Of a stretch of DNA of 64,000 nucleotides, positions 16,101 to 49,812 are shown piece by piece. A program made the translations under genes and the position numbers. The DNA comes from Ceratodon purpureus (taxonomy: Eukaryota; Streptophyta; Bryopsida; Pseudoditrichales; Ditrichaceae), in the NCBI GenBank assembly GCA_014871385.1, contig CM026431.1, forward strand, positions 2,240,464 to 2,304,463. Direction: 5' to 3'. How positions within the stretch are numbered: position 1 is the stretch's first letter; every line of letters starts with the position of its first letter. The notes below the pieces were generated by a model. That model was not told where the DNA came from, made no database searches, and was given only the letters and a program-made list of their open reading frames with translations.

Positions 16101-19100
16101 GGAGCGGGTCACTTTTTGTTCTTTGAATTGGTGATGTTTGCTCGCATGCTGCTGCCTTGGGCTGCTCGGCTTGGGGTATAATGTTTATTATTTTTTTTTA
16201 TTTTTAATTTTCTGATATTTAATTGCAATTAGATGAGAAAAAATTTGAATTTTGTTTTGTGAAATTGGACCTTGCACCCTACTGTCTGTGACGACAGTAG
16301 GGGAGCGGGTCACTATTTGTTCTTTGAATTGGTGATGTTTGCTCGCATGCTGCTGCCTTGGGCTGCTCGGCTTGGGGCTTAATGTTTATTATTTGTAGAG
16401 AGTATCGGGTTCGATTCCCCCAGGCCGGAGCTAGTGCTAGAAAGCTCTAGCAATGATGGCCTCAATTTTTTATGAAAATTTCTTATTATGTGTTAAATTG
16501 ATGGAGTTTCCTTGTTCTCTGGGTTGAGCTTGTGGTTATATTTTTTGTAGATTTGTCTTAAACCTTAATTTTGAATGGAGGTTTGATGGATGTAAATTCA
16601 CATTTATTTGTCTTTACATTTGTTTTATCACTGATAGTCGATTTCTTTGTGTATGAACTAGGAGTCTTCTGAGGATAATATGGGGAGCCAACGTGAAGTT
16701 CCAACACCAGCTGAGACCGAGGTACATTACTAGTTCTTCTTACTTGTCTCTTATTTTTAATTTTTTGCTTACAACTCTTTTAAAGGTGGAAAATAACCCT
16801 CTCTTCATTTCTTCTACTCTATGTATATTCAGATGCTCCTGAGATGTCCACGACCTCCCCCATTTCAGTTATCAATGTTTCCGACCTCTCGGATTCATTT
16901 GATCAGCCTTATTGTACCTGTGATGTAGCCAACCCTGTAGTTGGAGATAGTGGACCTCTCGAGGTCCACTCTCCACAGTACATGCCTACTTCTCCCGTGT
17001 ACATGCCTACCTCCCCAGTGTATGAGCCTACGTCCCCGGCCTACATGCCTACTTCCCCTCTACAGGGCTCACCGCCTATGTCTCCACCCTCTCCTTCATC
17101 GCCTATTAGAGTGAGAAGGCCAGCGCATGTGGTGTTCGCTCTACCGGCAATTCTGCCCTGCCCGGTTCAGCAAACCAGGCGGTTTTGGAGGAGGCGCCGT
17201 CACTGGAACTGTAGACAGTCTAAGGAGTACTATAGTCGAGCATCACGTAGATAGTTCCCCCAAGCGCAGATGAATTCTGACTTGTTACAAACGAGATGAC
17301 AGTATGAAGATATATTGTTACTTCCTTTTACATACTTGTCTTCTTTGCATGACTTCCTCTGATTCTGATTCCTCTTTCAATTCGCACACCTCTTGGCAGG
17401 TTACTCAAACACAAGATGTGTTGGCAAAACCATCTTGCCCGTCTGACTTGAAGACTGCTATGGAAGGGGAGTTGCAGCATCGAATACAATTCAAGCTCGA
17501 CTCCAACGCCGTCATCAACGACCTCAGGATCAAACCCACGCATAAGTCGCGAATGCTGGTGCCCCTGTGCAGGATGATCCCAATGGCCAAGGTTAGACCA
17601 GTGGGTGAAATGGGGGTACAACACTTGGAGCGGGAGTTTGTTAAGGGATATAGAGATGGGGACCGCGTCATGTACATCTCTATGTACAACACTGAAGAGC
17701 AAACAAAGAATGTGACGGCGGAGATCATGGCCACTTGGGGCCCTTTATGGACGGCAGCGAGTGATCGTTTTGATGATGAGATCTCTGGGGACGAGGAGTT
17801 GATGCAGTTCTCGCACAAGATGTTTTATGTCTGGGAGGGTAATCACCGCCTTTCCGCATGGCTAAGGCATATCAACAAGCATCATGCAGACGACCCATCC
17901 TGGCACATCTCTGTGCATTGCATTGTACTTGACCCCCGTGGCCATGTGGGCAATCTCTTGCACGCCATGCACGACATCAATTGGTACGTTCAAAAATCTT
18001 GAGCATTTGTTATCCATTTGAAGTCTTTTTCTAATAAATTTCATGGCAATTACTTACTAATTAGATACTCAGGTCGACTGAGAATGACCACGTGAAGAAT
18101 AATCTCCCAGCAAAACTGTTTCGAATCCGCTCATTTGGAATGATGAAGCTGGAGGAGTTCAAGGACCTCCTGTACCCGGAAGAATACGATGCTTGTTTGA
18201 AGAACAAGCCACCAAACCCGTCATGGTTTCCCTTAACTACTCGAGTTTTCGTCGCATTTCTTTACCGAGTAAGTTTTACCTCCTCCCTCTCTTTGCTCGT
18301 TTTATCTCCTCTCATTCTTTGAATGCTTTATTTCGTTCATTTATTATTTCCCTAAAAAATGATTATCCTTCTACAGCGGGAAATTGCTGTAGCCTCCGAT
18401 GAAGCAGCTAAGGCCTACAAGGAGAAGACACCGGCGGATGAACAGACTGCATCTGCGGTTTGGGAAATCATGAGTGAAGCGTCTGAGAAAATGGTGGACT
18501 CCATTAAGAATAAGGACTTCACCAAGTACTTGGCAATTGCAAATCCCAAGAACGGTGACGACTTCTTGAACGAGGTGACACCTTCATCTAATTTCAGATA
18601 GTATTTTGAATTGTTACAACGTTATGCAATTATAGTTTCTAATTCTTTACTCCTGGCAGATCAATCGGCATTACAGTCAGAACTCAAAACCTGAGATGTC
18701 CCTCGATAAGCTCCAGAAGATCTGTCCGGCGGCCGTTGAGCCCAAATACAAGGTTCGGTGGCTGAGGTGGTGGAACTCATCTCTGAGTTCTAGACTATCA
18801 TACAGATTTCCAAAGCCCGGATTCAAGGATACTGATTTCGACCCCTGGTTGAACAGGGCTTCATTCTGGGCTGGGGTATGCTTTCGAAATATGCCTTACC
18901 AATTACAAAGTGCTTTCTTAATTCTTCTCTCATTGGTACTTATTTCAATTCTGTATTACAGTTGGAGGAAGCCGTCATCAACGAGGTCGAGGACATATTC
19001 AAGTCGGAGAACCTCGATATCGATTGGAGGGCATTTCCTGATGTTCAACAGCCGGGCGACTTTGTCGAGAGTTCACGTATTATGTTATGGGACAAGGCCT

Positions 19101-21364
19101 TCCCTACGTTCATTGGGAAGAAGGCTGAGAAGCCCTTTGACAAGAAGTCCAACTTCGCTAAATTCCCTGGAACCGCTGAAGTTGTCAAGAGGGTTATATT
19201 CCGGTATGTCACGAAACTGTATTGCATTTGCATATTATAATTCGCTATTGCTTCTAATGCTACTAAGCTTCTAAATTTCTTCCCTTAGGTACTTCAAGCG
19301 AGAGCTTCTTCTGAAGGGGGCCATCACGGTCCACCAGCTCCCCAACTACTTCCTTTCTTGGACGCAGACAACCTCGGACCAGTGTATCTATTCTCCACAG
19401 CAGATAAAAAGGTACAAAGCTCCTCACTTGCTTGAGGGATGCTGGTACCTTGATTGTTCTCGCGGTTTCACAATTGACTCTGAGGTGGACATCAAGACTT
19501 TACACGATGGGGGTAAGGTGGTGGTCGAAGAGACGGTGGACGGTCCTGAAGATGACAATGGCCCTGAAGACCAATCATCGGCTCCTCCACCGAAGAAAGG
19601 GAGAGGAAGGCGACTGAAATCTTTGCGATCACATTCACAAGCTTCAGAGCAAACTGGTGCGGCGTCTTCCGCTCCAGAGCAGACCGCTCCAGAACCCTCT
19701 CCGGGTAATGTGATTACGAAGCCTTCTTCAACTTCTTCACCGGGTCCTTCCTCGATCAGTGCTTCGGAGATCACCAGAGGTCTCCTTGAGCAGAGGAAGG
19801 CCAAACTATATCCCCAACCAACTTCTTCCGCTGGAGCTTCGATTTCCTCACAAGTGTCCGTCTTCAACTCATCTGTGGATTCCCTGTTGCGGCGAAATAG
19901 GAGACAGGAGAGAAAAGGTGGCGACCCGGATTGGATCAAGACTCAAGACTTCATTCGCAAGGTTTGTTCCTATATTTTGACATATAATGGATTCTGCCAC
20001 CTCTACTCGCTATGTAGTTACTAACTCTCCTTTCTTGTTTCCTCAAGTTTGGAGCAGGCCGTGAAAACGAAGTTCCCGACCGCTGCAAACAAGAGAACCA
20101 TCTGGGAGTCGACTTGATCATTGCCGACATCCCTGAGAATCTTCCCGTCCCATCCGTTTCCGTTCCCCCCACGAGTATTCCGCCTTGGAACTCTCGCTAC
20201 AAGGATTATTTGTACGACATCTTCCATTTTGCAGATGAATTCCTGCAGAAAGATGGTGCCATCTGCCTCATCTACAACACCGATCAGAAGCTGGCTAAGG
20301 ATATCGAGGTAGAAGCTGCTGGTGGTGGATACGTGCTGTTCAAGGACTGGTGGGGTGTCAATGTACTCGGCCTGACTTCTCCAACGAACCCCGAGAAATT
20401 GGTAATTGACCTAAACATACCCTTCCCTTTACTGATTGATAACCCTTCCGCTTAATTTTACTCACTAGTTTTGCTTGACTGCAGACTATGCGGTTCTGGA
20501 TTCGCGTCTACGTTCGTAGTGGCAGTACTTTCTCCTTCCAGACGAAGAAGGAAGACCTGATACATGGGCTCCTCAACATTACCGAGAGTGATGCCATTTT
20601 CAACTTCACCGATGTGGATTCGCAGCTCATGAATGGGGAGGTGCCGTGGAGAGGCGCAAGGGAGAAATCCATTGACATGATGCAGGGCATACTTGAGGAG
20701 CTGTCAAAGCCCGGCGACATAGTTGTTGATTGGAATGCTGGGACAGGTAACTATTCATGCATATCTTTGCTGAATTATTCCTCTCGTTTTTACCACAGTT
20801 TCTCATTTCTTTGTATCTCTCCGAGTTTCAGGAGCCTCCATCAAGGCTGCCCAGGCTACTGGTCGCCACATTCTCGCTTTTGAGGAGGACGAAGCCATAT
20901 TCAACGCCCTTCTCAAACCATCCGCCATGGGCCCTCCTAAACATCCAAGGCCGGCAGCAGCAGGCGAAGCGCCTCCAAAGAGACCAAGACCTGATAAGTG
21001 GTGTAAGTCTTCTATTCTACGTTCAAATTATCCAAGCATTACTTCTCTTTGCTGCTCTACGTACTCGATGTAACCACAGTCGGTTCTCTATTGCAGAGTA
21101 GTTTCAGCATCACCGCCACGTGTGCCAAGTGCAGTGTCCACTCCATCGTGGCGTCTTCATTCCAGCCCGATTCAGCCTTTCATACTTCCGGACTACGCAG
21201 AGGACTTAGCACAGGCGTTTCAATCTCGAGCCCTTACATATGTTCCTAGTCGGCCATCTACTTTTGATCCCAGAGCCCTTCTATTCGTCGATGACGAGGC
21301 GGTAGAAGGAGATTCGGAGTCATCTAGTTCTGAGAGTGAAAGTAGCGATTGTAGCATGTTGTGA
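4190..21364 (+). CDS. Multi-exon gene: CTD-like heptads, ParB-like motif, permuted amino-methyltransferase fold
   Basis: Exons read by eye: 4190-4639, 4817-5224, 16662-16721, 16844-17110, 17400-17983, 18073-18268, 18377-18574, 18660-18875, 18962-19203, 19289-19961, 20048-20401, 20485-20746, 20832-21002, 21099-21364. All phases agree and give about 1448 residues. Residues 1-60 are very basic (RRRKRG, RRARKRRE), a likely nuclear signal. Residues about 352-379 are four heptads of the form YxPTSPx. A ParB-like VWEGNHRLSAW lies near residue 539. The C-terminus has a beta-class N4/N6 amino-methyltransferase order: DLIIADIPEN in the motif IV position (about 1125), then KPGDIVVDWNAGTG as motif I (about 1293), followed by GRHILAFEEDE. 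The usual DPPY/SPPY and DPFxGSG are altered, so activity is doubtful. The weakest join is exon 4: the best acceptor (16832) is out of frame and a poorer one at 16843 is needed. Exons 5-13 are solid. It could be a host gene of bacterial or phage ancestry, or transposon cargo. Confidence 0.6.
5290..5630 (+). repeat. Short GT-rich degenerate repeats at the start of the long intron
   Basis: Just inside the second intron there are short imperfect repeats. Around 5300-5400 the phrase GTCGTACGGG recurs, each time near TTTGAATG or a variant. Around 5505-5620 phrases such as GAGAAGGTTTTTGGGG and GAAGTGCTG-TTGCTTGGGGTT recur. They abut the first unit of the 201-bp array and may be older, decayed tandem repeats. 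Confidence 0.5.
5631..16391 (+). repeat. 201-bp tandem array, about 53 units, filling an intron
   Basis: The unit is 201 bases: landmark GGGGAGCGGGTCAC starts at 5631, 5832, 6033 (one change), 6234 and so on to 15679, which is 50 steps averaging 201. About three more partial or whole units follow an insertion near 15796-15910. Units are nearly identical. They differ at a few fixed sites (GGGGTATAATG or GGGATTAAATG; AAATTTGAAT or AAATATGAAT; ATTGGTG or AATGTTG; T-run length). Each unit contains a perfect 10-bp stem, CCCTACTGTC with GACAGTAGGG, around a loop TGTGAC. The rest is AT-rich with long T runs and a TGCTCGCATGCTGCTGCC phrase. The whole array lies between the donor at 5225 and the acceptor at 16661, so it should be transcribed as intron. 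It has no ORF of interest; the 67-residue frames near 10.1 and 11.9 kb are repeat artefacts. Confidence 0.95.
15825..16476. repeat. 85-bp inverted repeats with a tRNA B-box, bracketing the last array units
   Basis: Bases 15825-15909 and 16392-16476 are inverted copies of each other, almost perfect over 85 bases. Between them sit about 480 bases of the 201-bp array in its normal orientation. The right arm reads GGTTCGATTCC near 16408, an exact match to the RNA polymerase III B-box consensus GGTTCGANTCC; the left arm carries its complement. The arms also contain short self-complementary runs (CTAGTGCTAGAAAGCTCTAG). This could be a foldback element that has caught array units, or two SINE-like copies in opposite orientation. 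No target-site duplication was found. Confidence 0.75.
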
Positions 21365-23034: not shown

Positions 23035-23832
23035 ATGACAGGTAGAAGAGTTGATTGGTGCATTACTGCTCTTACAGAGGATGTCGTGGACCATTACTGG
23101 TATAAGGATCTACGAAAGGAGAAAGGTTTTGTTGATAACAAGAAAATGCAGGATACAGTGGTAGATTCAATTCTGAAGGCAAGGCAAATACCTGACACTG
23201 ATGTGACGTTGCCGGAGAAGGATGGTGACACTGCAATGGTGACATCTACAACGCATCGACACATGCGGTACACAGTGTACAATCCGGGATCTGAGTGGGG
23301 CGTATGCAATTGTATCTGGGCGCAACGTGGTAACATGTGCAAACATCATGTAAAAGTTGTTATGATGATGCATCCTGAGATAGCGGAAGGCACGATTGCA
23401 CGATACTGTGGGAGAATGGCTGGTAATGTTAACGGAGGATTACAGCAATTATTAACACCGAGCAGGGCTCAGAATAAGGTACCAGTTGATGTGTATACTC
23501 CTTTACCTGATCACACATCAGTGCCTCAAACTCCCATTACGACTCCTCAAAGGAGACGTCCTCTTGATCTACCGGAGACTCTGCGACAACAGTTTATCCA
23601 CCTCCACGAAGTAGTAGGAGAAGATTCATTTTTACAGGAACATCTCGTGGCTGAGTTGAACCAAACGCTTGGTCGACTGAGGAGACTGAAAGTGGAAAAA
23701 AGGGAGGGGACCCTCCATCCCATGGCTGGTTCTCCGATATTTGAGACTGTTGTTGACGGAATGGGATTCAAGCTTGCTCGACGAAAGGGCTTCCTCGAAC
23801 GCGGCGGGTCCTCCGTGGCTCGTCGTCTTTAG
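23035..23832 (+). pseudogene. C-terminal part of a MULE-like SWIM transposase
   Basis: The open frame begins at ATG 23035 with RRVDWCITALTEDVVDHYW, which aligns by eye with the region just before the SWIM finger in the transposase family also seen at 1-3550. The SWIM finger follows: CNCIWAQRGNMCKHH, i.e. CxCx7CxH. After it come a PTP-rich linker and a leucine-rich helix (LVAELNQTLGRLRRLKVEK). About 265 residues are present. The DDE catalytic core that should lie upstream is absent, and no frame for it is seen between 22.3 and 23.0 kb. It is therefore 5'-truncated, or its earlier exons are lost or replaced. It sits in the block rich in the GTGACACT motif and may belong to the same element as the Ulp1 gene. 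Confidence 0.65.
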
Positions 23833-24198
23833 GTAACGTTACTGTTCCAGTGACACGTTCGTGACAGAGTCCATCCTCTACCTGACTTCTTCTTCACGCT
23901 TTCTCAGCGTGACACTGTTCACGAGTGTCACCGTCATATTGCCTTCCACCAGATGGAAGACTCCCTTTCTTTTGTACGCCTACCTCTTTTTTTATTTTGG
24001 GTCTGTTTAGGGTGAAGAGATGATCCGCATTGTTTTCCACGTCGAGTTTGATACAGTGGAGGTTTTGGTCCTTGGTTTAGGGTTACTCGTACTCCTTTTT
24101 CTTTGGAAGAGAATGGCTATGACGTGCGACGCAGAGGAACTTCCTAACGGCAGTTTCGGACTTGTTCGGGGGGAAATGTTTCTCGCTCAGATTGTCCG

Positions 24199-24438
24199 AT
24201 GCTGTGTTCTCATCCCACGTTGAGGAAGTCGAAGCAACGTGGAGACCGTTATAGCATTCCTGTCCACCGGGGGAGAACAGACACAGAAGTAGATGACCTG
24301 TCTGCCCAGACCCCGCAATCGTGCTCTGAAGAATCTGTTGATGACGACGAAACTGAAGTGCAATGGGTTATGCGTCAATTTCACGGCGGACTCGGTGAAC
24401 ATGAATGGGACAACCTAAGTAATTACAGTGCGAAGTAG
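24199..24438 (+). CDS. Small acidic ORF, possible last exon
   Basis: An 80-residue frame with a basic start (LRKSKQRGDRYS) and an acidic end (SEESVDDDETEVQW, then HGGLGEHEWDNLSNYSAK). A good splice acceptor (CTCGCTCAG) sits at 24178-24190 and opens directly into the frame, so this may be the final exon of the transposase-like gene upstream rather than a separate gene. No family is recognised. The frame ends at TAG near 24436, and motif copies start just after (24447, 24546, 24581). Confidence 0.3.
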   Translation: MLCSHPTLRKSKQRGDRYSIPVHRGRTDTEVDDLSAQTPQSCSEESVDDDETEVQWVMRQFHGGLGEHEWDNLSNYSAK

Positions 24439-25690
24439 GTTATTACAGTGTCACCTATATTTCCGTACATTGACCTGTTCGTAGAATGTATCATTTCTGA
24501 CTATGTCAGATATAATCAATTGAAGCCCTTGCGGTCATCTTGTCTGTGACACTGAAGTTGCTTAGTATTATGGTCATTAGGTGACACTGTGTCAGTTCAT
24601 GTGTTATCTCCAGTAGTTATGATTTCAGCTACTCTTTTCGTATTCTGTGATTCAGAAAGATTCTAAAAAAAATGTTTATAGTTCACTCTGCGGCCCAACT
24701 TATAATTAAAAAAACCAGCTTATTATGTACTTAGCCCTCTCCCGTTAACTCATTTAAGTAGATTTGAAAACCTCTATGAATGCAAGCAATTTTCTGGGTT
24801 TTATTATAATACTTTCGATTTATACATACCGAATTCGAATTTATACAAGGATATATTCATTCCAAGCATGTTTCATATACGTCAATATATACTCCTTAGT
24901 CCTACAGAAGACTTTGCTAATCCATTTGAATTTCTGATTTAATAATCATGATTTCACTTATTAAGGTATGATGACTAGAGATTTACAATCACAAGCAAGG
25001 ATTAAAACGTGAGATTAAAAATTCATAATACACATTTTAACCAGATTCATATTCGATAATTAATGATTGTATTTCTTGTATAGATGTTTCCATTGATATT
25101 TGTCATTGTCACTTGTTTTTTATATACGTATAATAATAAAATCTAAACAAAGTGAAATTAATTATTTTATACATTTTATAAACGTTGAAGTACATGTACA
25201 ACACATAAAATAATATAATAAATTTAAACCCAAATAAAATTGTAAAGAATAATACAAAAAACTTACACGTACGTTCATATATACTTATATATCCATGTAC
25301 ATATTGAAAGAGTATATGTGTTTTTTACATAACGTCTAACATTATATTTCTTAAATGTATAGAATCATATTCATGCATTAGAAATCACCTATATAACTAT
25401 CAGGGTCAATACACACTACATTTGGATCCTCTTTTACTTACGAGCGTATCCCCTTAGTAATGTATATTATAAAAAAATAAACTATATTAATTACTTTGGA
25501 AATGTTTAAGCACTACATGTATGTTTACTCAATCAATATTTATTATGAATATTTACTTTACTATATTCCGGTCCTTATTGCCCACGGCTGCAATCTAGAA
25601 CCGTATTAGATTTATGGTTCACAATATTGGGAGTTGCAAAGTTCCCAATGGAGAAGAACGTGGGACGTTCATCTGTCATACTTCCTCTTT
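24439..25690. other. AT-rich spacer with no gene
   Basis: About 1.25 kb, very AT-rich between 24640 and 25560, with no frame worth naming. Three copies of the GTGACACT/AGTGTCAC octamer lie in its first 150 bases and none in the rest. The AT-rich core may be an insertion into the motif-bearing block. Confidence 0.5.
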
Positions 25691-25695
25691 GCCTG

Positions 25696-25703
25696 TATAT
25701 AAG
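25696..25703 (+). promoter_or_regulatory. TATA box
   Basis: TATATAAG in a locally AT-poor, pyrimidine-rich context, followed about 30 bases later by a CT-rich stretch (TTCGGACCCTCTCTTGCACTC) that would suit a plant transcription start. The first ATG of the small ORF is 111 bases downstream. This is a conventional core-promoter layout. Confidence 0.5.
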
Positions 25704-25813
25704 TGATCACTTCTTCGCTTCGGACCCTCTCTTGCACTCTGTCTTTACGAGGTCCATTTCTTAGGCTGTGACCTAGGTTGCTCTGTTGTCGTTGCACACT
25801 TAGGAAATTAGGG

Positions 25814-26203
25814 ATGGAAGGTCTAGAATCAGAAGTACTGGAGTTCCTAGCTAGAATGGCCGACTACGTCGACATAGCTGTTCCGAGAACGGGTCTCTCT
25901 GTTCCGACTTCCAGTGTCACGGTTCTGCCTGTGTGTAATGATCGACTATACCCTCCCCCGTTGACATCAGGACATGCCAAGCTGAAGCGTAAAAGGGCAA
26001 ATCCTTTGGGTGTGACATCAAAGGCTCCTGAAAAGAAGAAGGTGGTTCTCTTCCCCGGGATCGAACGGTTTAAGGGAGTACAGCCTACGAGTACATACGC
26101 GTCACTACTGCAAGGGCGGTCTATGTGGAAGAGAACGTCATGTGAGAAGAAGACCATGATATGTGGTTGCAGCTCTATGATATCATGTACTCATAGTAGT
26201 TGA
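25814..26203 (+). CDS. Small ORF with nuclear-localisation-like basic cluster, 129 residues
   Basis: The frame starts at ATG 25814 behind a good TATA box. It begins MEGLESEVLEFLARMADYVD, a short amphipathic helix, continues with a Ser/Thr/Pro-rich stretch, then KLKRKRANPLGV and KAPEKKKVVL, two basic clusters that look like a nuclear signal. It ends with a Cys/Ser-rich tail. An AGTGTCAC motif copy lies inside the frame at 25913. No family is recognised. It may be a complete small gene or the first exon of a longer one; a donor-like GTGAGAAG near 26142 is in the frame. Confidence 0.35.
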   Translation: MEGLESEVLEFLARMADYVDIAVPRTGLSVPTSSVTVLPVCNDRLYPPPLTSGHAKLKRKRANPLGVTSKAPEKKKVVLFPGIERFKGVQPTSTYASLLQGRSMWKRTSCEKKTMICGCSSMISCTHSS

Positions 26204-26842
26204 GTTTTTTATTTTCGTGCAATTAGTTCTACGTTTGGTCTATGCAATTCTCAATCTGTATTTGGAGAAGAAATCCAGCTTCGTCAAGAACAGTAATAAA
26301 ATATCCATCTTCGTAATCACTGCCCTCTTGTCGCGCAATTATTAATCATTGAGTTGTACGAAGTGTAATACGTTCATAACACTGTGACACTATGCAACAG
26401 AGGGTACACTGTGACACTGAGTCTTGCTCCTTTAGATGTATAGAACTTATTACTAGTTCACTGGAGACTGTAATGGACTATACATGTCATTGGATGGAAA
26501 CTTAGAGTTACAATTCTGATTTTTAATGAACTATCTTTTCTGATTGTGGGTTTTCATCAAATACTGTGAGTCAATGTGATCTCCTAGCGTTACTCACTAC
26601 TTGATATTGGTAAGTCAAAATGATTCATTTCAGTGTCACTACGTCCATGGAAACATTGACTGACACCAGCAACAGCTTACAGTGCAACCAAAGAGAACTA
26701 AGGACTTTCGAACTGAATGCTTAAATTGCAACCTCACAAGCATGTACTGTTCTTGTCACATAACTGATGAAAAAACGTTTTGCACTGAGTCAAGGCCTAC
26801 CACTGTCTGATATTTAAACAGCAGCAGTAAGTCAGTAATCAT
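26204..26842. other. Intergenic stretch between convergent ORFs, motif copies present
   Basis: No coding frame. It holds three exact octamer copies (26384, 26411, 26632) and lies between the 3' ends of the plus-strand small ORF and the minus-strand Ulp1 gene, so it should contain both polyadenylation regions. AATAAA occurs near 26294-26300. Confidence 0.45.
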
Positions 26843-29800
26843 TCACTTTTTCTGAGGAACACAGAAGGGTGCCCTAAATCTAGTGTCACGGCGTGCACTG
26901 TCTAGTTCCCGTGCTAGCAGACATAGTATCTCCATGTTCGTGACTTTTGGACTGAAAGGGGCCATCAGTGCACTTCTCATCAGATCAACCTTCTTCGAAG
27001 AAGGCCACGCTCGGAACTGCAAATCAGTAACCACAAAGTCAGAGAGCATTCTACTAGATTTATTCCGAAGTGAGAAGCAAACAGTCAGTACATGAGATTC
27101 GGTACAGGGTTCTGGTGCTGGCTTACCTTGAGATACAGAATGGTATTTCGAATAGTGTGGTGTCCACACTCGTAATCGCCCGTTTGACGCAACGCCTCCA
27201 CCTTCACCAGAGGAACATCATAAGGTTCGACACCACGGAGGGTCTGCCATGCTCTGGAGATCCACTGAACAAACGAACTATGTATCCCATCCGGCTTATG
27301 ACAGTCACCCTCCGCGGAGTCTAAATGCACCACCTTATCATATTGTAAAACCAAAAGAGACCAGTGGTCTTCACCCACCCATGGCAAAAACACTTCCTTC
27401 ACCTGATGAACTCCGACAGGAGGTGCGGGCTGGAGAAACTTCCTCGCCCATTTCAGCATACCATCATGGTCCGACATTGAACATCTAAAAGTAGAACTGA
27501 CCCGACTGAGAGCAAACATAATCTCGTGCCTGTTGTTAGCGGGGTACTGAAAATACAGGCGAGACATGACAAAATCCACGATATTATTCCCAAGCCGAGT
27601 CCGTACTCGCTTGAGTTCTCTTATCTCTTGGAACTTCACCTCTAGCTCTTTGTTCTTCTCACTGAAGAACACCACGTCAACTGCGCCGTCCTTCTTTCCC
27701 TTTCGCCCCGGCATCGTCTGCAACAAGTGCTCGATGTGTAAGTAATTGTAAGCTTGAGACAATGTCATCACAGTAACATCCTCAACTCGGACTATAGCAC
27801 AACCTGGCCACGGAGCTGCTGCCACGACAGTCGCAACGTCCGTATCCTCAACGCTGTGGACTTCTTCGTCAGTGTTCTTTATTTTCTTTTCGGTCCGCTG
27901 TGATAAGCTCACAAGCTCGGCAGCAGTGACTTGGAGATCGTCTTCCTCATCAAACGTAGAACTCAGGTTCCGGCACGCAGAGTCTTTCTCCACCAGTGTC
28001 ACCTCCGAATCACTGTTCCCGGGTACAATGGAAACACCTTTGTATGGGGTTCGCATAGCCTCCTCTGGATTTCCCTTCACCCACTGCTGGAAACTTGGAT
28101 CTTGCGAAAACGTTGTTTCCTCCACCACCATATCGTCACCTGCGTGGGCAGTATTGTGGAATTGACTTAGTGTCAACAACGGAGTTACAACCGATGGCGA
28201 AGAGTCCCCCTCAAGAATGTCGCGGATTTCAGGGAAGACAGTGGGCACAGAGTTTCCCTCACCAGAGACCGGGAGCACATGGACAGTGTCACCCAGTGTC
28301 ACCGTGGCTTCAGAATCTTTCTCCGACGTAGGCGATGTTGACAGTGTAACTGAAGGGTCTGATGTCATCGTAGGGTTCAAGTTCTTCCCTTCAACCGTGG
28401 CTGAATGTAACCCTTTCCCTTCTATGACCTTGGCCACCACTGTGACACTGTCAGTAGGATCTCCCTCAGCCATATCAGAGTGGGGTGACACTGATCTTTG
28501 CACATCCGAAGGCCGAACTGTGACACTGAATGCCTGCTCATGTGGGGGACATTCGGGGAGCAATGGTAAACCGTCGACGACACTGTCAGTGCATCCGGCG
28601 GGAGCGATGAGGTAAGGTCTTGGAGAGAATCCCGTTACACTGCCAGCAACATCAACCGCAGTGCCGACAGATTTTACCTCTTCGGATTTCGTGACACTGG
28701 GTATGTTCGCACCCTGCTGGCCATGACCGTGGGAGAGGGGTAGTGTAGCCGTAATTGTACTTGACTCCATTGTCGTGGCTTCTATACGAACACGGGGGAC
28801 CGACTGAAGGTCGATATTTACTCCGGTCTCAGGTACGGTTTTTGAATCACAGTGCATGTCCTCCTCCCCCCCTTCTATGTCTCTGTCCCCTGATTCTGAG
28901 ATCGAAGTCTTGGTATGCATCACCATATGTGCTGAAATGGGGGTCTGCTGATCCGCTTGGGCTGTACATTCCGCATCGCCTACAGGTGTTGGCGGGACCG
29001 TGTCAAGTACATCCTTCTTGGATCCTGGTATTCCACCCACGCATGTTGAGTGTTCTTCTTCAAACCCTACGGTATCACAGAACTGTTTAGCACACACCAT
29101 CCAGTATGCTGTGTCCTCCTTTTTCAACGTCTCGCTGATGTCGCAAACCGATTCCTGGATACGAAGTCTTAATGCCGCGACGCCTGGATTCCAGCTTGGG
29201 GTCTGCACACTGAGAACCCATCCAATATCGTGCTCCTCTCGAGTCCTCAATATCCAATCCCACGTCTTCTGGTGCTCCATCCACTGCTCATGAGAAGAAT
29301 TAACCCAGATATGCGTGAATTCCATAGCTTGACAGACCGCCAAGTCTTGTACTGCTCTCAATCGCACCCTGTGAACCCACCCGAGCAGGTTCTCCACTAT
29401 TTCGTGACCTTCCCCTCTGTTTATCTTGTTCACTTCATCCATTACCCTCTCTCGCAGCATCTCCCCGATCCCGAAGGGAACTCCAGATTACGTGCAAAGT
29501 CCCTCGGTCAGGAAAGTAGACAAAGCGCGGTGGATGTTGAGGACGACTCCGCACTCCCTCCGGACGATAACCTCGGTTAACCCATAGAAAGGACAAGTGA
29601 TTAATCTGTAGGGACCGTACAGTGATTTGAAGAGGACGCGGATTACGTAAAGCAATGGTGTTGGTGTTGCTGGTTCGACCCGGTTTTCGCAAAGGGATCT
29701 CCGAATTACTTTAGCCTCCACGGCTAATGCACATAACAGGATATCAGCAAGCAATAACTCTATGAACATTATACAACAACAACCTATAAGTATATAATCT

Positions 29801-32743
29801 GCAGCCTATTCTTATCCATGCTCGAAGTATATCAAAGGACGAGCTAAACATCATATTAATTTCACAGGTAAAACTCACCATCGTGTCGCCAAGGTAACCC
29901 AGGCATTCTCTTTAGAAGGTCCGGGTCTGACGATATAATTCGCCAAAGTGGCGACCAATCCCAGTGTGCCTCTTCGTACAGGCGACCGTTCTTCTCCCTG
30001 AAATGCATCCTCGCCATACTGGCTCGCTTCATGTCTGCCTGACGCAATTCCACCCGATAGGCATCTAGTGCTATCTGGTATCGGTCGAAGTCAACCTTCC
30101 ACTGGACGTATTGTCCCAAGGCACCTAGGTCTTCATAAGGGGCGACGTCTTCGACACTCTCAACGAGCGCATCAATCGATTTCGAAACAGCTTGAACCAC
30201 AGCCGCCGGCAGTGGTGCCTTCTTATCCCCCTGCCCAGGAAACAAAGTCTTAACAGTCAAAAACAATGCAGAAACCTTAGAAACAGAGTAACCATACAAC
30301 CTAAACACTAAGAGAATTTCCATAAATTTGTGACTAACCTTTTTACGGGACCACCAATACGTCAGGCGCATCAATTTATCCCTAAATTCTTCCCGGGTAA
30401 TGTCTTCATTCCAGCGGTTCACAAACTCCTCTCCAGTGTCACACTCCCATGACCAGGGCAGTGTCACGTCCTCTCCGATCTCCCTCAAGTAATACAAACC
30501 GGGCATTTGGGGTTCCTCGGGACGCAAGGGCGGAGGCGGATGTCGCTGCACTGACTCCGATTCACTGCATTGCTTCATGACGTGGTCCTTTTCAATCTCC
30601 TCGAGACGTTTCTGCCTGCGCTGGAACTTCTTGTACGCATCTGGGTGATGTGTGAACGGTCCAGGGCAGCCCTTCCCGTCAGCCCAGTACTGTTGGAGGT
30701 CGTTGGCGTTCCTGAATTCGTCGTCCCAAACTGCCATCCTCCTTAATTCATCCTCAGGTTCCAACCGCGACACTTCTACACGCTGCTGTGACGGACTATC
30801 GAGGACAGGGAGGTCGTCTCCCGCATGGAGTCCACTGTGACACTGCATCATTTCCTCTATAACGTTACAGGGTTTCTGTCTAATGACCTCGACCTCTTGG
30901 AACTGTCTATCTATACAATCTGAAACCACGGCCCGTAAACGGATGTCGGGAACTCTATACTTAACACAGAACCTATCACGTAAAAGATCGATTGCTATCT
31001 GTTTGTCGCTTACCTCCAAAGTCGATGGCTCACCGCCATTGTGAATTTTCAAGGGCTTTTTCTTCTTGCGACAGTTCTTCCCTACCTTCTTCTCTTCTGC
31101 TTTTCGCTTTAGGGTTTCTTTGATAGTGGGCCCGCGAGTCTGATCGTCTACATCCGGATCCGGTGACATCTGTACCTGCACATTGGTGTTACAAGGCAGT
31201 ATTGACATGGTACCTTGTAAACCCCTGCGAGTAGTAGTTGCGATTTTGTCCATCGATACAGTCTCCAGCGGTGGAGACGCTTCGGGTGACATTACTCTAT
31301 GGTCTGCAGCCACCTGAACATCGACAGTGTCTTTTTTAGGTACCCGAAAGACGTCTATGTCTTCGTCAGCATCTTCAACGTCACATATCTCTTCCACTGG
31401 CCCTAAACCTTCGGCGACGGGGTCATCCCTGTCAGCACTCCTAGCAACCGCTGGTTCACGAGGTCCAGGCATGGCACTTTTTCTGCAGCCCTTGGCCGGG
31501 GATGGAGCTGCATTGGAGACCTTTTTCTGAACCTTCTTCCCATCCGCACCCACCTTCGGCTGCTCCTCTGTACAAGATACTCTCTTGTAAATGAGGTCTT
31601 CTGCAATCGGCATTTTCCCTTCCACTGGCTGAATCGCATCGAATCCTTGAACAGCATTCGCAGTAGAACTCCCGCCCGTAGGTAGACTCTGCCCCCCTCT
31701 ATCCCTCGAGTTCAGTCCTTTACCGGTAACTGTCTTCTTCGATGGTGATGCCTTCTTGCACAGGACCTCCACTCGTTTCCCTTCCCCTCTCTTGAAATCA
31801 GGATAAGGGAGCAAGAGCGCCATGGTCCCGTCCGGATACGTAGCTCCCGAGCACCCTTCGATGTACCTGTGACGATTCAACATCATTTTATTGCTGAAGT
31901 CGTTCTTCCCGCAATGTATACAAACAAAGAATTTCCGAACCCCGTCGTCCTTCTTCTTCCCTTTGCACATCGTGGCAAATTCGGTTTGCAGATCCTCCAT
32001 CCTCCGTTGACTGGGATACTTCACTTCATAGGAATACCCGTAGATAACGACATTCAGTGTCACAGGCTCCATCGCCATATCCGTAGCCTTGTAAACTGCT
32101 GTACCCGCTCCACACTTTACACACCCTGCTGGAAAAAACGAGTAATACCTAAACCTACTCACGACCCCAATAAGAGTACCGCATCCGCTTCGGCACAGCA
32201 CCTCTGAAAAATACTAGTCCTCCTCAAGGTATTCGACATCGTCTCTGCAACAACCTCTACATCAGCACCCGGAACATCCCCACAATACAACTGAAATTGG
32301 AAAAACTTCCATATTACATTCACTGAAGTAAGTGGAGTATGGCGGGAGTTGACATACCTACTGTGGTGCTAAAATCCCGCGAAGAATGCAACATTTCTAG
32401 ACCCTAAAACACACATGTAACATGTAGAAATCGGGAGCAACATCAAACCCTAAACCCAGAAGACGGAACCCCACCTCGGAATGCTCCAGAATGCAAATTC
32501 GGGGTCCGGCGACGTCTCCACGGAGCTCCTAGACGTAACACGAAGGTCAGCAATGTAGAAAGTATCAAATTCCATCACGATAACAAGCAATGCAGCGAAA
32601 CCAGATTGGAGGGATACGCATAATCTCGGAAAAAAACACAACTTACCTCCATAGCGACGATGTTTACAGAGTAGCTCCTTCTCCAACATGAAGACAGAGC
32701 TCTCGCCCTGTGCCATAGATGTCATCTCCAGCCCTCCTAGCAT
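26843..32743 (-). CDS. Large zinc-motif protein with C-terminal Ulp1/C48 protease, transposon type
   Basis: Read as one minus-strand gene. Exon 1 is 32743-32647 (MLGGLEMTSMAQGESS), exon 2 starts at 32128 in phase and runs to about 29890 with a small in-frame intron near 30240-30338, and a further exon runs from about 29781 to 27103. The last exon begins after the acceptor near 27021 and ends at TGA 26843. Cysteines in exons 1-2 (CKHRRYGG, CVKCGAG) could bind zinc. A C2H2-like finger follows (CIHCGKNDFSNKMMLNRHR), then acidic and lysine-rich linkers. The C-terminus has the Ulp1 signature: DHW (His), HLDS (Asp), RQTGDYECGHH (Gln and Cys), all four catalytic residues kept. One in-frame TAA lies at about 29488, between the two large open frames, so the copy may be disabled or the intron there misread. 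Ulp1-carrying MULEs (Kaonashi type) are known in plants; this is probably an analogous element. Confidence 0.6.
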
Positions 32744-32867
32744 TATGATGGCGTAATTATGCTAAACCTCCAGCTCGGACCGATTTAACACAGCAGAAGC
32801 ACGAAGCGGTGGGAGCAATTAACGAACAAAACGTACAATCCCTACAATCTACAATAACTTCGACTAG

Positions 32868-32880
32868 AAACCCTAAACCC
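32868..32880. promoter_or_regulatory. Telo-box upstream of the Ulp1-type gene
   Basis: AAACCCTAAACCC, a plant telo-box, about 125 bases upstream of the minus-strand start codon at 32743. A second copy lies at 32445-32457 inside the first intron. In plants this box is common in promoters of genes active in dividing cells. Here it could be a real element or coincidental telomere-like sequence. Confidence 0.4.
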
Positions 32881-33109
32881 AACAACCATCAAATCGCACT
32901 TCCTCCACAACAATCATACCCAGACGACGAGAACACGAAACACTGGGTAACCCTAACCCCTAGTCGCCCGTGGGAGGTGAGAGACGACTGACGTGGCGTG
33001 ACGTCACTTTTTCTGGATCGCGGTCAGTAGAAAATTTTAGTGTCACGGGAACATTCAGTGTTTAGTGTCACGGGAGTTGTGGTTGTGTCACAGTGTAACG
33101 CAGAGTTCG

Positions 33110-36100
33110 GATTTACGGGGGCGCGGAGTTACCCGGGAGGCGGGGCGCGGGGAAAACGGGGCCGTCCACGGTGGCGTGCCACGGTGGAAGCCGAGGCGCG
33201 CCGTCCCGCCTTATCCTTCCCTACGGAGCATTTAGCGTTCTCCTGGAGAGAGCATTTGAGAAATCATGTGAAGACAGGCAAGCATTGTCAGATTCTTGAG
33301 AGGAAAAAGAGCTTCAAATACAATCTTCAAGGTCTTCAGCAACTGGCAATTTTCAGCACCTATGATACTACAGCGTACTAAGTACCTTACCTTTTCATTG
33401 CTGCCAAGTTCTACACAAGTTTCCTTCAAGTTGAAATTACTATGAACAGCAATGTGACTGACTAGGTTCTGTAGCATACATGTGATAAGATATTTTGGAA
33501 GATGATTTCTATTCGTTTTCAAATCAAGTTAGTTCTGTATTCGCATTTTGGCCCTGCTGAATTTGTTATTTGTGTACTTTCCATGAATTCTTATCAATAC
33601 ACCAGCCCACATTCCACACCAACGGCTATTGATGCAAGCAGTAACTTATGTTATTACTGTTCACATCCATTTGGACTCGAGACAAAGTGCTGATTCCGAG
33701 TCCATTTGAATGGCATGAGTAAGAGGAAATTTGAGTTAGATATTAGCACGCACAGTACCGTACCTAACCTGGCAGTTGTGGTGTGGGCTTGAGATCAAAA
33801 TTTGATTTGAGAACTTCTCTAGGAAAAGATGTTTGTATCAAAAATAAATATAAGAACTGATTCAACACTAAAATATGAATCAGCTTTGTATGACTTACTG
33901 GGATCAGTGGAATGCAACATGGCATTGTTTACATATCCAATATTAAAAGAATCTTTGGAAATATTAAACCCATAGATGTAAAAATCTAATCTTATGACTA
34001 ATTAATAAATATCATAATATTTTAAGAACTACAATAGAAGACATTATTTCTTTGGTCTAAATTTCATGGACATTTAGTTGCTAACCCTTTGAAAGAAAAA
34101 AGCAATAACCAAAAACCTCTAATTATTTTACCATCTAAGCATTGAATGTTTGACTTTTGATAAGCTATTTCTTATTTGTGAAAAATCTAACCACAATAAA
34201 AGTTATGAGGACTTTGATCTCAATGCAAGTCTACATCTTTTGATAAAAATTCTATGCAAATACTCTTTTGGCAAACTCTTTGATACAAGTATGTCTAGTT
34301 TTGAACTATTTTTGCTTTGAAAAACTTGGCCAATTTCATTTATCTTACATGGCCATACAGTACTTGTAAACATTTGTTTTGGTAAGTATATAAATTAAAA
34401 GATGATTTCAAAAGATCTTGGAATTGTAAATTTTTTAATCGCACAAATTGTAGAAGTAAGTATCCAAATTCAAAGTGCTAACAATCAAACTTCAAATTTT
34501 ATTTGATATTGAAACATATTGATCTTTCAATTCATGAGGCTCAAGAATTCCAAATCAATCTACATCGTCTACTATAAGTCTATTGCAAAAGATTTCAATT
34601 GAAATTCACATTTGTAACTTCTATTTATACATATGATACTTTAACCTCTAAAGCATCAACTCAGCAGTTTTGGTATGACTTAGGATCCGGTTAGGCTCCC
34701 TATGAGTCAAATTTTACCGGATGTGGCTGTAACTTTGGCACAAAATGAGAAATTTTCATATCTTTCTAACAAGACCATTCATGCTTCAAAATTTCTCATA
34801 CTTTAAGAGATATCCGGAGTCAAAATTTGAAAACACTATTTGGGAATGCTGAATTTGGCACTGTATTGCCGTATAATTATCTGATTTTAAACTAGGGCTT
34901 CGCTGCTCTCCGCTTTACCAGTGACGATTGGTATTTTATGATTGATAGGTATATAAAGGTAATGGTGGATACGATTGGTATTTTATGATTGATAGGTATA
35001 TAAAGGTAATGGTGGATAGGTATATATTGGAAGAAGGTAGTTGGTATATATTGGAAGAAGGTATATATATATAATTTAGGCAAAGCTGCTAGCAACCTAT
35101 GGTGCTATGCAATAAGTGCATGGTGTTAGAATAATAAATTAAAAGAAACTAGTCTATTTGAAGAACAATAATAACTTTGTCAAATCGACCACCACTCACA
35201 ATGCCCGTCCACCAAGTAACACCCAAGTATAAGACCGGGTGTCAACGTAGTATCACAGACGCAGTATCCAGGTATCAATGGAGAAGTGGACCCTCAGAGT
35301 ACATGAGCTTTCTAAGCATTCAGCACTTGAGCTTTCTGCAGGTTTAATTTTGCAGGTTTTCTTTCGAGTTTGGGCTCACAGTGAGGGTGTTAAAGTTGAG
35401 TCATCTCTAATGGAGTTGCACTTGATGATAACCCAGTTCCTAGAGATTGTAAGTGTATACAAGTTTTTGTTTACACAAGCCTCTGTACCTGCCATGGTGT
35501 TGGATTCCAAGAGCTCTGATTAAGCCTTTCGTTCCACTGACTTCTTCAAAATCTACAACAGCAGTTCTTCAAAATCTACAACAGCAGTACGTTTTTCATA
35601 CAAGCTCAGTAGAGTTCTGGGCAAGTGCCCTGCACAAAAGTTTTCACGGAGAACAGGATGATCACAGGTTCATTATCATTCAATCACACTTCTCCGTGAT
35701 ATCTAGGCACATTACACAGAAGTAAAAACTGTGCACACATAGAATTGGCACACAATATCCACACAAACAATTATCTTCTCATCACCTCTCCATGTTTATA
35801 ACATCCTTCACTGCCACTGTTTCCACCAGAGATTCTGCCAAGTACCATGATTCTCAGATCAACCACAAGTTGTTCTTGTAAAACACCGAATCAGCCAACA
35901 CAAAATTCTCATCTTCAATAATGTAATTTACAAAAGGTGCATCAGCTCTGGTTTCGAATCTTCCACTGCTGCATTAAAATTAAATTCCCTCTAATCAAAC
36001 AAGCCTTGGGTTCAATGGATTCAATCACACCAGCTCCATATTCCCGATTCCTGTCTTCCAGAAATAAGCTGCCAATGTCGTCAACACAATCCTCTCCACA

Positions 36101-36170
36101 CAAGGCATCTCCATCCCGGTTCCTGAATACAATCCCTTGCTGTGGCATAAGAGTGCAACCTTCAGAGTCT
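33110..36170. other. AT-rich gene-free stretch, with a GC-rich left edge
   Basis: Bases 33110-33230 are GC-rich (GGGGGCGCGG, GGCGGGGCGCGGGG). From about 33250 the DNA becomes AT-rich with no credible gene to 36170. A 47-bp tandem duplication starts at 34926 and 34973 (GATTGGTATTTTATGATTG), followed by shorter TATATATTGGAAGAAGG repeats to about 35070. A 28-bp segment at 34864-34891 is identical to one at 41460-41487. A possible exon-like 35278-35523 frame shows no recognisable family. Confidence 0.45.
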
Positions 36171-37190
36171 CTAGTGAACCTTGTTGGACTCATCAGCTAC
36201 TCTTCTACTCCACGGAGAGAAATCTTCAAATGCAGACTCCTCATCGTTTTCATCTCCATCGTCATCATCAGAATCGTCCTCCCAGGTCGACCCATCTGCG
36301 TCGTCATCGCTCTCCCAGTCTTCATCCTCGGAGAAAGTTGACAGGCTCGAGTTGGAGCGCAACGGGACAAACTCGGAATCCTCCTGCTCAGGGTAAAGGT
36401 CCGAATCATCCTCAAGCTCTCTAAGTAAGGCAGCCTTGTTTGCCCACTCTTTGTGCGCTTCTGCAGCTGCCGATTGAGCTCTACCTGATGCCACTTCGTC
36501 CCACGAGAAAGAGATGTCTGCGTGTCTGCTCAGAGTCATTGTGTCCCCTGTCACAATCGTTTGCAAGTTTTTCATACTCGCCAGCCTCAGAATGTTGACG
36601 AAGTCGGAGTCGTCTGATACAAGGACTAGGGTTTCTAGGCCCCTGCAACCAAACCGTCATTCACTGGGAGGTTAGCATCATGTGCACAGGACTGTGAGGA
36701 ACTGTTTCTAGAGGATTGGAATTCCTGCAGCAAATTGAACTTTGCAAACTGGTTCTAGGGCTGGTTTCAAAAAACTTCGGTCATCTGAATTGTGGAGACG
36801 GGAAATGGAGAGTTACCTGTTGATATACACATTCATATGCTTGATGAGTACTTCATTAGCTGCTTGGGGCCTGTCCTCCACGGTCCTCAGATAGACACCC
36901 GCTCTTTTCAGCTCAGGGGCAAGGCCGTAACCTGTCTTGGGGGCCAGGAGCTGAGAAGCGATGGCCTGGTACATGTCTTCTTTCTCAGCCAGCTTCGCCT
37001 TGTACCTCTGCCGCTTCCCTCCTTTCAGGTGATTCAAGTGGGTCATTCTTTTATTGCGTTCTCTCTCGTGCAGCTGCTTGAAATGCTTCTTCAGCTTCAA
37101 ATATGTTTGGCACTTGCGGCCGCCATACTGGCACCGATACGGCTCTGTCGCACCACACAATGTCACAAATGATACCGAATCTGTGGGTAT
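36171..37190 (-). CDS. NYN-domain (PIN-like RNase fold) protein with zinc finger, C-terminal two exons
   Basis: The penultimate exon is 37190-36817 and the last exon 36642-36171, joined by a 174-base GT-AG intron in matching phase. The first exon has a finger-like CQYGGRKC with HFKQLHERE, then KTGYGLAPELKRAGVYLRTV and DRPQAANEVL. The second opens GLETLVLVSDDSDFVNILR and continues IVTGD, LSRHADISFSWDEV. This matches the NYN half of plant organelle-type 'putative endonuclease' proteins, where SDDSDF supplies acidic catalytic residues. The tail is strongly acidic (EDEDWESDDDADGS, DDSDDDDGDENDE). The second Cys expected in CxxC of the finger is Gly here. The N-terminal WDLDN part of the NYN fold was not found upstream, so the gene is either incomplete or its 5' exons lie beyond the copia fragment. 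Acts on RNA by family analogy. Confidence 0.65.
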
Positions 37191-37199
37191 CTTGCAGAG

Positions 37200-37810
37200 G
37201 TGCAAAAACTTGGGCATCCATCAAACTACCAACTATGGAACATCAAAATGAAATACATTGTTCTCCTGGCATACTTGTGGGACATAGTAGATCCATCACA
37301 AGAAATACCAAATGACAATATGATCAAATTGACTCCTCTAAATGCTTCCATTGATGAGTCACGAAAATCACTGGCTATGGCTATCTTGCAATCAGCAGTA
37401 AATCATACAACCAAAAACTTCATATCCCACATAAAAGAGCCTTGAGAATGTTGGATGGTGCTGCAAAACCACTTTGCACCTCACACAATTGCTCGTAAAT
37501 TCTATCTTTACAGAAGCCTTCTTAGTTTGAGAATGAAAGAAAACGAGCGATTTGATCATTTTTATAAAAGATTCACTCAACTGAAATGTGATCTCGAGGA
37601 TATGGGGAAGTTGTTTGAAGAAGAGGACCTGGTGTTTATGATACTTCAAGCCTTACCAAGGAGCTGGGATGACTTCACACGAAAGTGCGTGATGACGGAG
37701 AATTTCAAGGAGCTCAATTTATCTGAATTGTGTAGGAAGGTTAGGTCTGAAGAGAAGTGGTCAGGGGTTCTTGCGAAACTAAGCACGGTAAAGAAATTAT
37801 CCCTTTAGAA
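37200..37810 (+). mobile_element. Ty1/copia retrotransposon fossil, gag fragment
   Basis: Plus-strand translation shows a copia-type gag: an NYQLWNIKMKYIV start and, further on, LRMKENERFDHFYKRF and ALPRSWDDF, the pattern of the UBN2/gag domain. Only the gag part is visible; LTRs, protease, integrase and reverse transcriptase were not seen nearby. It is broken and short. It abuts the upstream edge of the NYN-gene exon, in the opposite orientation, so it probably inserted into that gene's intron or 5' region. Age cannot be set without LTRs, but the degree of decay suggests an old copy. Confidence 0.6.
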
Positions 37811-39402
37811 CCCAATTCTGAAATGACTTCTACGCGTGTGTCGTAAACAAACGTAAAACTTTATGTTGACAGTACACAAACAAAAATTTACTAAACATTC
37901 ATGAATCAGACTTTAAGTCACAGTGTCACAACACACTATGATGGAGTTGTCATTTTCTGATGAGGGGACCGGTTTATGTATTACATAATACTTGTAGGCT
38001 CCGGCAATCTACATAAACCAGGTGAGAAAAAACATACCAGCTAAAATCGGCATTCGCAGTGTTCCGGGGATGTTGCGGCACACAACTTACGCACTGCTGG
38101 CCACATTACATTTTGTCCGCTTCCACTTTCAGCAGGGTGCAAAAAAATTCTGCATGGCAGGATACAAACGCGTTAATCACTTTTGGCATCTCATCATTGG
38201 TATCTCATCACTGGTAACCTCTCTGGTGGCACTTCAGAAGGTAGCAGGAATATTCAGACAAAAAATTGTAGTAAAGAAAAGCTGTACTTCTGTTGCTTGC
38301 TGTAAAACCCTAAACCCTTAACCTGAAAAACTCTATCAAGGAGTAGTTGAACGTCAGACCAGGAATAGAAGCAGAGACTCTAGCGTAGACAACATCTAAG
38401 CGTATGACAGATCTAAGGTGGACACTGTTTGCCATTAATGACATACATGCAAGGTGAGCAAAGAACATTGACAAATATTTTTTCAGAAAGTTGAGTAGGT
38501 CTTACATGCGGAGGAATTACTTGATTGCTTTTCAGCAACAGGCTCAATGTACTTCCTGGGTTGAGTAGCGCCCAAGACCTCCAAAATCTGGAGGTTCGGG
38601 AGCTCAGTGAAGCTTTCCAAATTTTCTATCACAGAGCAAGGAAAACTCCAGATCAATCTCAAGGGACATGCTAGGCATGGTGTGTGCATGTTCTTGATAA
38701 CCAGAAGCATGTATCAATCATGGCCAATGAAGCATTGTTACCGGTTGCCACATTCTTGATGTCTCTCATCGCTGAAACTCTTTGAAACTGAGAAGATGAT
38801 TTCCGGATGCTCTCGTTAGCGATCTTTCCCTAAAAGAGACGCCCCAACACTTTAAAATTAATAGAATTCGGAACGCTTACATAAGTCTTTGGTGGAATTG
38901 ATTCCGACTTAGGTAATTGATTCCGACTTAGTTAATTGTAGAAGTCCTGATTCAACTGTATAACTCCTGTGTACAGCTAGTTCTAATGGTAGACTCTGCA
39001 GTGGTGGCCATGCTCAGGCCACTCACGCCATCGAAAAAGAACCGAAGAATTGATCACTACGACGGCTTGATATTTTTGGGAGGAAACACCAACCCTTTTG
39101 CTCTGTTCTAACGTTCTAACTCATGCACTCTGTACCCGAGTCTAGGTCTAAATGCTAGAATCTTTCTAAAACCTCATGGTAATGGTATGAGGCCTGGACC
39201 TAGATACTACAAAAATTCGTGTCAAATATCCTAAACCTTAAAACGATCATTGATTGATTCCGAAACTGATTTAAAAAGAATAGTATTTCTAATATCGCCT
39301 CCATATAAAAGCCGGAAGGGTCTTGCCAGCTGCCCGACATCTGCAAGATGTTCTGTAACGATATAACCATACTGAAATAAGAAAATTTGGAAAGAGATGT
39401 AC
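37811..39402. other. Mostly non-coding; one exon-like minus-strand segment
   Basis: No clear gene. On the minus strand, about 38625-38505 reads ENLESFTELPNLQILEVLG then PRKYIEPVAEKQSSNSSAC and meets a GTAAG donor, so it may be an orphan exon; no family is recognised. One isolated AGTGTCAC copy lies at 37922. The rest is unremarkable AT-rich DNA. Confidence 0.35.
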
Positions 39403-41080: not shown

Positions 41081-41864
41081 AATTTTTACATTTGGTAAAC
41101 CTAATTTTGTCGTGCATCAGAAAACATTTGAATACAAATATATTTGTTCTATTTTTAGAAAATTTATGCATGTTTGGAAATCTCTAAAAAGGACTTCGTT
41201 TTTGTTGAACATGCCATGTAGGTACGGTATGTGTTTTGTTTGAATTTTTTTCAAAGACTTTTAAAAATTGTTGTAGCTTTTTTCAAGACATCAAATGACT
41301 TGTAAACATTTTTCTACAAGTATGAATTACCTATAAAATGTGATACATGAGTAAAAAAAATTATCTTGTTTGACGTTGTAAATTTTTCATATATGTGCAA
41401 TTCAATGATTTAAATTTTTATTTTTTTTGAACTTACGGATTACTTTTTGCTATCCACGGTATTGCCGTATAATTATCTGATTTTAAATTTTTACATTTGG
41501 TAAACCTAATTTTGTCGTGCATCAGAAAACATTTGAATACAAATATATTTGTTCTATTTTTAGAAAATTTATGCATGTTTGGAAATCTCTAAAAAGGACT
41601 TCGTTTTTGTTGAACATGCCATGTAGGTACGGTATGTGTTTTGTTTGAATTTTTTTCAAAGACTTTTAAAAATTGTTGTAGCTTTTTTCAAGACATCAAA
41701 TGACTTGTAAACATTTTTCTACAAGTATGAATTACCTATAAAATGTGATACATGAGTAAAAAAAATTATCTTGTTTGACGTTGTAAATTTTTCATATATG
41801 TGCAATTCAATGATTTAAATTTTTATTTTTTTTGAACTTACGGATTACTTTTTGCTATCCACGG
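41081..41864 (+). repeat. 379-bp direct duplication with 26-bp spacer
   Basis: Bases 41081-41459 recur at 41486-41864 with no difference that I can see, an offset of 405. The 26-base spacer plus two bases of copy 2 (41460-41487) equals the segment at 34864-34891. The copies are AT-rich and non-coding. Near-identity indicates a recent tandem duplication of a 405-bp unit. Confidence 0.9.
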
Positions 41865-49702: not shown

Positions 49703-49812
49703 TGGGTCTAAGGCCAAAGTATAGTTGGAATTCAAATTAATTTGGTTCTTATGAGCTATTACAATTCCAATTTTAAACTTTTTGTTGATAGCAAATACCA
49801 TATGTAATACAT

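Follow-up and report, generated by a model that had tools for sequence, protein, structure and literature searches.

VANDAL elements are recognised by a target-site duplication of about 9 bp, terminal inverted repeats (TIRs) being optional, and KI-MULEs (Kaonashi) are Mutator-like mobile elements that carry a gene for a Ulp1-type protease. In the literature found, sequence-specific anti-silencing by way of a dense, private motif is described for the VANDALs of Arabidopsis. VANDAL21 (Hi) of Arabidopsis codes for several proteins, and VANC21 binds YAGTATTAY, a dense, element-specific motif whose copies are arrayed in one orientation, are mainly non-coding, often form tandem repeats and grow by tandem duplication (PMC5735166, in part). 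The targets of VANC6 carry AGTTGTCC/AGTTGTAC (PMC5735166, in part). The VANDAL group is one of many MULE groups for which a SWIM domain is listed (PMC6446971, in part). In two other systems, TnpA and MURA lower the methylation of their own elements (PMC10398659, in part).

In the window analysed here, by which is meant the whole 64-kb stretch of DNA, the octamer AGTGTCAC/GTGACACT occurs as 25 exact copies on the two strands. All but one lie, in both orientations, in the interval 23225–33071, where about 0.45 are expected; the remaining copy is at 37922. The earlier note had reported 24 copies in about 10 kb where fewer than one would be expected, with one elsewhere, and the recount bears this out. 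Order-2 Markov simulation of 22.7–33.2 kb (300 runs) gave a mean of 0.45 octamers, and no non-simple 8-mer exceeded seven copies in any run, while dinucleotide shuffles of the whole window (n = 100) gave a mean of 1.89 and a maximum of five. An order-4 Markov model gave a mean of 4.06 for the octamer and at most 13 copies of any 8-mer, but it was fitted on the block itself, so that the octamer was already built in. When words were counted in 10-kb sliding windows (2-kb step) outside the satellite, the runner-up among non-simple words was the A/T-rich ATTTTTTA, with 11 copies; higher word counts were found in those touching the 201-bp tandem array (5.6–16.4 kb). The k-mer spectra of seven segments, with the array excluded, held no 8-mer above 10 copies outside the block. 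Within this window, the octamer is a private short motif at high density, with close copies in the same orientation. A literature search for the bare octamer gave, among the matches listed, none that concerned a transposon motif by its title or the start of its abstract. The array itself is satellite-like: at 5630–16394 the 201-bp unit is repeated 53.5 times in tandem, with 96% matches.

The fuller consensus of the 24 block copies is YAGTGTCACV. Position −1 is a pyrimidine in 23 of 24 copies (C 19, T 4, G 1) and position +1 is a base other than T, again in 23 (A 8, C 8, G 7, T 1), with a milder preference for G at +2 (13 of 24). Past these positions the flanks are mostly unrelated and look random column by column, indicating that the copies do not belong to one spread repeat. 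Small exceptions are the recurrence of AGTG at +8 in four of the 24, and a short stretch of flank that the two copies have in common in the pairs 33039/33064 (TTTAGTGTCACGGGA) and 26384/26411 (AGTGTCACAGTGT). The block has 14 one-mismatch neighbours, where the rates in the adjoining sequence would predict about 4–5; three of them are AGTGTAAC, and a few overlap exact copies or one another. Two-mismatch words are found at 10.4 per kb, compared with 4.8 and 7.4 in the flanking stretches. The excess of exact copies (24) over one-mismatch copies (14) indicates a word that has been maintained, or assembled very recently, rather than a decaying repeat.

The gene models for the block consist of ORFs and splice-like sites, not transcripts. 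A SWIM-type zinc-finger ORF (23035–23832, + strand, 265 aa from its ATG) has a CxCx..CxH pattern by eye and contains one octamer; a 44-aa piece matches PF04434 at E 0.038, below the Pfam cut-off, and neither the whole ORF nor a 141-aa piece gave a Pfam match. The ORF of a small basic protein (25814–26203, + strand, 129 aa), also with one octamer, had no match in Pfam. The putative gene for a Ulp1/C48-type cysteine protease (26846–29487, − strand) has its main exon at 27127–29487 and a predicted last exon at 26846–27016, the splice sites being deduced from sequence, and carries eight octamers. Pfam gave no match for its 800-aa ORF or for a 217-aa piece, and the C-terminal 151-aa piece matched PF02902 at E 0.033, below cut-off. 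The ORF aligned weakly with SENP8 (E 0.27) and with a Ulp1-like SUMO protease (E 1.2), and in these alignments the His-Asp-Cys signature is kept, with Q before the Cys (HW, DS, Q..YxCG). A zinc-finger protein ORF (29865–32213, − strand, 783 aa including a putative in-frame intron) has four octamers, and matches PF16622 at E 0.059 over its whole length and at E 0.00038 on a 41-aa piece, both below the Pfam cut-off; searched by sequence against the PDB, it returned nothing up to E 10. The zinc-finger and Ulp1 ORFs may be spliced together as one gene. The domain assignments of the putative Ulp1-type, zinc-finger and SWIM-type proteins are all weak. Predicted structures had mean pLDDT values of 34 for the zinc-finger ORF and 41 for the ORF of the Ulp1 last exon, too poor for a fold search. 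No relatives of the Ulp1-type, SWIM-type or zinc-finger proteins were found in a viral contig collection, nor of the Ulp1-type protein in a collection of prokaryote genome contigs, which says little since such an outcome is expected for a eukaryotic element. No RNA family reached its gathering score.

The putative coding sequence (5856 nt) holds 14 octamers and the other 4644 nt of the 10.5-kb interval hold 10, so that neither coding nor non-coding sequence is preferred. Relative to their gene, six of the coding copies are in sense and eight in antisense orientation, and each of the three codon phases is represented. Shuffling of synonymous codons within the ORFs, which preserves the proteins and codon use, gave a mean of 1.29 octamers and a maximum of seven in 4000 runs, compared with the 14 observed. 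The main exon of the Ulp1-type gene has seven by itself (shuffle mean 0.62) and the zinc-finger ORF four (shuffle mean 0.45), numbers never reached in 4000 runs, while three short coding pieces with one octamer each are individually not significant (0.05–0.12). As the shuffled counts lie far below 14, the signal is at the level of DNA and not of protein.

The copies are also grouped. Successive gaps shorter than 50 bp make up eight of 23, compared with 2.6 expected (P 0.0016), and in seven of these eight close pairs both copies have the same orientation, compared with seven of 15 wider-spaced neighbours. Same-orientation pairs lie outside putative coding sequence at 24546–24588 (starts 35 bp apart) and 26384–26418 (27 bp apart), both on the − strand, and within the zinc-finger coding sequence at 30435–30467 (+ strand, antisense to the gene, 25 bp apart). 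An opposite-orientation pair, with starts 15 bp apart, is found downstream of the SWIM-type ORF (23909–23931). The densest group has six octamers in 28285–28698, in both orientations and three codon phases, in what appears by eye to be a linker-like stretch of the Ulp1-type gene. At the right end of the block, a + strand cluster (33039–33099) combines two exact copies, with starts 25 bp apart, and two one-mismatch copies (33084, 33092); the left end has no cluster of exact octamers. The pairs named in the earlier note (23909/23924, 28285/28295, 26384/26411 and 33039/33064) were all recovered. Its statement that copies occur in both orientations and in exons, introns and spacers stands for the orientations, for the putative exons (14 of 24) and for sequence outside them (10 of 24), but not for introns, to which no copy could be firmly assigned as the gene models derive from ORFs and splice-like sites only.

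The block (about 22.85–33.2 kb) would represent one transposon-like element, judging from its gene content, the extent of the motif, a lower GpC ratio and the change in CpG at its right edge. The GpC ratio is 0.76 over the block and 0.86, 0.95 and 1.09 in adjoining stretches, with some single kilobases elsewhere equally low. The observed/expected CpG ratio is 0.86 in the block, 0.83 at 0–5.2 kb and 0.73–0.79 at 16.5–22.85 kb, and the similar values of the left neighbours mean that high CpG is not specific to escape from methylation. Undepleted CpG was accordingly rejected as a footprint of such escape, as most of the left flank is likewise undepleted and only the right flank drops. Most 1-kb bins left of 33.2 kb, satellite array excluded, have CpG ratios of 0.69–1.0, the lowest being 0.51–0.66 at 16–18 and 26 kb. 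Within 33200–39000, the ratio falls to 0.31–0.59 in the 1-kb bins of 34–39 kb.

No ORF of the block gave a Pfam match to a transposase core (Mutator-type DDE or VANA). This is not decisive, since Pfam also missed a transposase-like ORF at 803–3661, and a diverged core is possible. An inverted-repeat search revealed no convincing element ends among the 25 of 30 pairs listed. In a combined search for TIRs and target-site duplications, the best pair scored 17, compared with a mean of 12.8 and a maximum of 16 in 30 shuffles, and it sits in a simple TTTGATT repeat. At the far left of the window (3–3661, − strand) are two overlapping large ORFs of 953 and 462 aa that look transposase-like by eye, with a SWIM-like C-terminal motif. 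A 40-aa piece matches PF04434 at E 0.026, below cut-off; neither ORF has a DDE family match in Pfam or an exact octamer.

When aligned with YAGTATTAY, the word of the block agrees at seven of nine positions. A random equal-base word would do so with a chance of 0.8% unshifted, or 3.5% if shifts of up to two are allowed. The likeness is suggestive but does not prove common descent with the VANC21 motif; the block contains YAGTATTAY a single time. Both systems combine a dense, short, element-specific motif with several putative or known proteins, and the parallel to VANDAL elements drawn in the earlier note is apt. The putative SWIM-type ORF fits a VANDAL-like reading. VANC-type domains (DUF1985, DUF287) gave no Pfam match in the block ORFs, although distant homology is possible. 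The VANC21 sites differ in being mainly non-coding, whereas those of the block occupy putative exons, with 14 of the 24 copies, as readily as spacers, in both orientations and with mostly unrelated flanks, and no tandem array found by TRF covers them. A looser likeness exists to the VANC6 targets, in that AGTTGTAC (the AC type; PMC5735166, in part) and AGTGTCAC both have the form AGT...AC, but their three middle bases are unlike and VANC6 sites are located in non-coding tandem repeats. By analogy, the block plausibly works like the VANC system, without necessarily being a VANDAL. A Ulp1-type protease gene is carried by KI-MULEs and, putatively, by this block, but a DDE core was not found in the block by Pfam, and KI-MULEs are not known to have a dispersed private motif.

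The octamer could be a cis-acting signal for transposition, through which a transposase or accessory protein joins the element ends, as TnpA of Spm/En does, with the internal copies being excess or regulatory. A DNA-binding protein of CACTA elements recognises a short motif that is present many times (PMC2613891, in part), and the right-end cluster, which packs two exact and two one-mismatch copies into some 60 bp, is what such a signal might look like. The block resembles Spm/En in its many copies of a short motif, the reader being the element-encoded TnpA in one case and a putative protein in the other. However, CACTA sites are confined to subterminal regions, whereas those described here run through the whole interior and the exons in proportion to length, with no left-end cluster of exact copies, no convincing terminal repeats and no Pfam match to a CACTA-type transposase. 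This interior and exonic placement makes transposition unlikely as the sole role, and the explanation as a whole is given a rather low probability. TnpA acts in transposition and is correlated with demethylation (PMC10398659, in part), so roles in transposition and against silencing may coexist. A text search of the literature with a TnpA 12-mer gave no match.

Two other explanations are less likely than a transposition signal. The word might be recognised by a factor of the host, acting on transcription or chromatin, which the element exploits or which is aimed against it. A length of 8 bp is normal for such a site and one octamer does lie outside the block, but the use of both orientations, the copies in putative exons and the presence of just one copy elsewhere in the window make a host factor improbable; an element would moreover lose sites that served to silence it, not gather them. 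Less probable again is that a short sequence multiplied without function, through local duplication, gene conversion or the insertion of filler DNA. Such spread would account for the slight sharing of flanks in some pairs (TTTAGTGTCACGGGA, AGTGTCACAGTGT) and for the AGTG at +8, but the 24 flanks are otherwise unrelated by column, no TRF tandem array covers the sites, and a neutral process would leave more one-mismatch copies. A tandem-repeat origin was rejected on the missing TRF array and the mostly unrelated flanks. In its linker-like part, the Ulp1-type protein does contain the tripeptides SVT and VTL repeatedly, as a repeated peptide, or an RNA-level signal in the element genes, would have it. 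This explanation is largely refuted by the synonymous shuffle (mean 1.29 compared with 14), and with ten copies outside putative coding sequence and the others in three codon phases and both orientations, its probability is minimal. An origin of the octamer in a protein repeat was rejected on the same codon phases and shuffle.

The explanation preferred here, to which we give about an even chance, is that the octamer is the site for a protein encoded by the element and acting along all of it, most likely against silencing. That these are putative binding sites marking the whole block, as the earlier note proposed, is well supported by the statistics, chiefly the synonymous-codon shuffle and the mostly unrelated flanks. 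An element-encoded protein would recognise YAGTGTCACV and, with many sites available, often in close same-orientation pairs, would cover all of the element through the density of its sites, with no need of a single strong one. Once bound, it would most likely remove or block silencing marks along the element, keeping the genes expressed, as in the VANC system. Candidate readers would be the zinc-finger/Ulp1 product, the SWIM-type protein and the small basic protein, which are equally open choices. A more tentative proposal, which we hold to be somewhat doubtful, is that an element outside the VANDALs has evolved whole-element marking, its coding sequence being shaped to carry sites for its own anti-silencing protein. 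If so, selection on DNA would keep the word inside exons, and silencing or separating any part of the element would entail a loss of recognition. The AGT-NNN-AC likeness to the VANC6 and VANC21 motifs would then reflect convergence or a deep common descent of the reader. A further case with different genes and an exonic motif would suggest that labelling every part of itself is a general transposon strategy, and a search for private words that saturate an element would give a simple computational route to more cases; a sequence-specific chromatin tool is perhaps a further outcome.

Several other features were seen in the window. Near the left side of the block, ORF pieces at 20018–20880 (+ strand) are possibly a diverged DNA-methyltransferase-like gene; one of them matches N6_N4_Mtase weakly (E 0.042, below cut-off). 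To the right of the block, a piece with an NYN domain (36174–37220, − strand; E 0.0013, below cut-off) adjoins an ORF whose matches to zinc fingers are very weak, and a Copia-type gag fragment (Retrotran_gag_2, E 1.6e-16) is found at 37446–37805 on the + strand. At 41081–41864, a recent direct duplication comprises 1.9 copies of a 405-bp unit with 100% identity, and the related sequences at 49431–49703 and 61046–61335 form an inverted pair that is about 81% identical.
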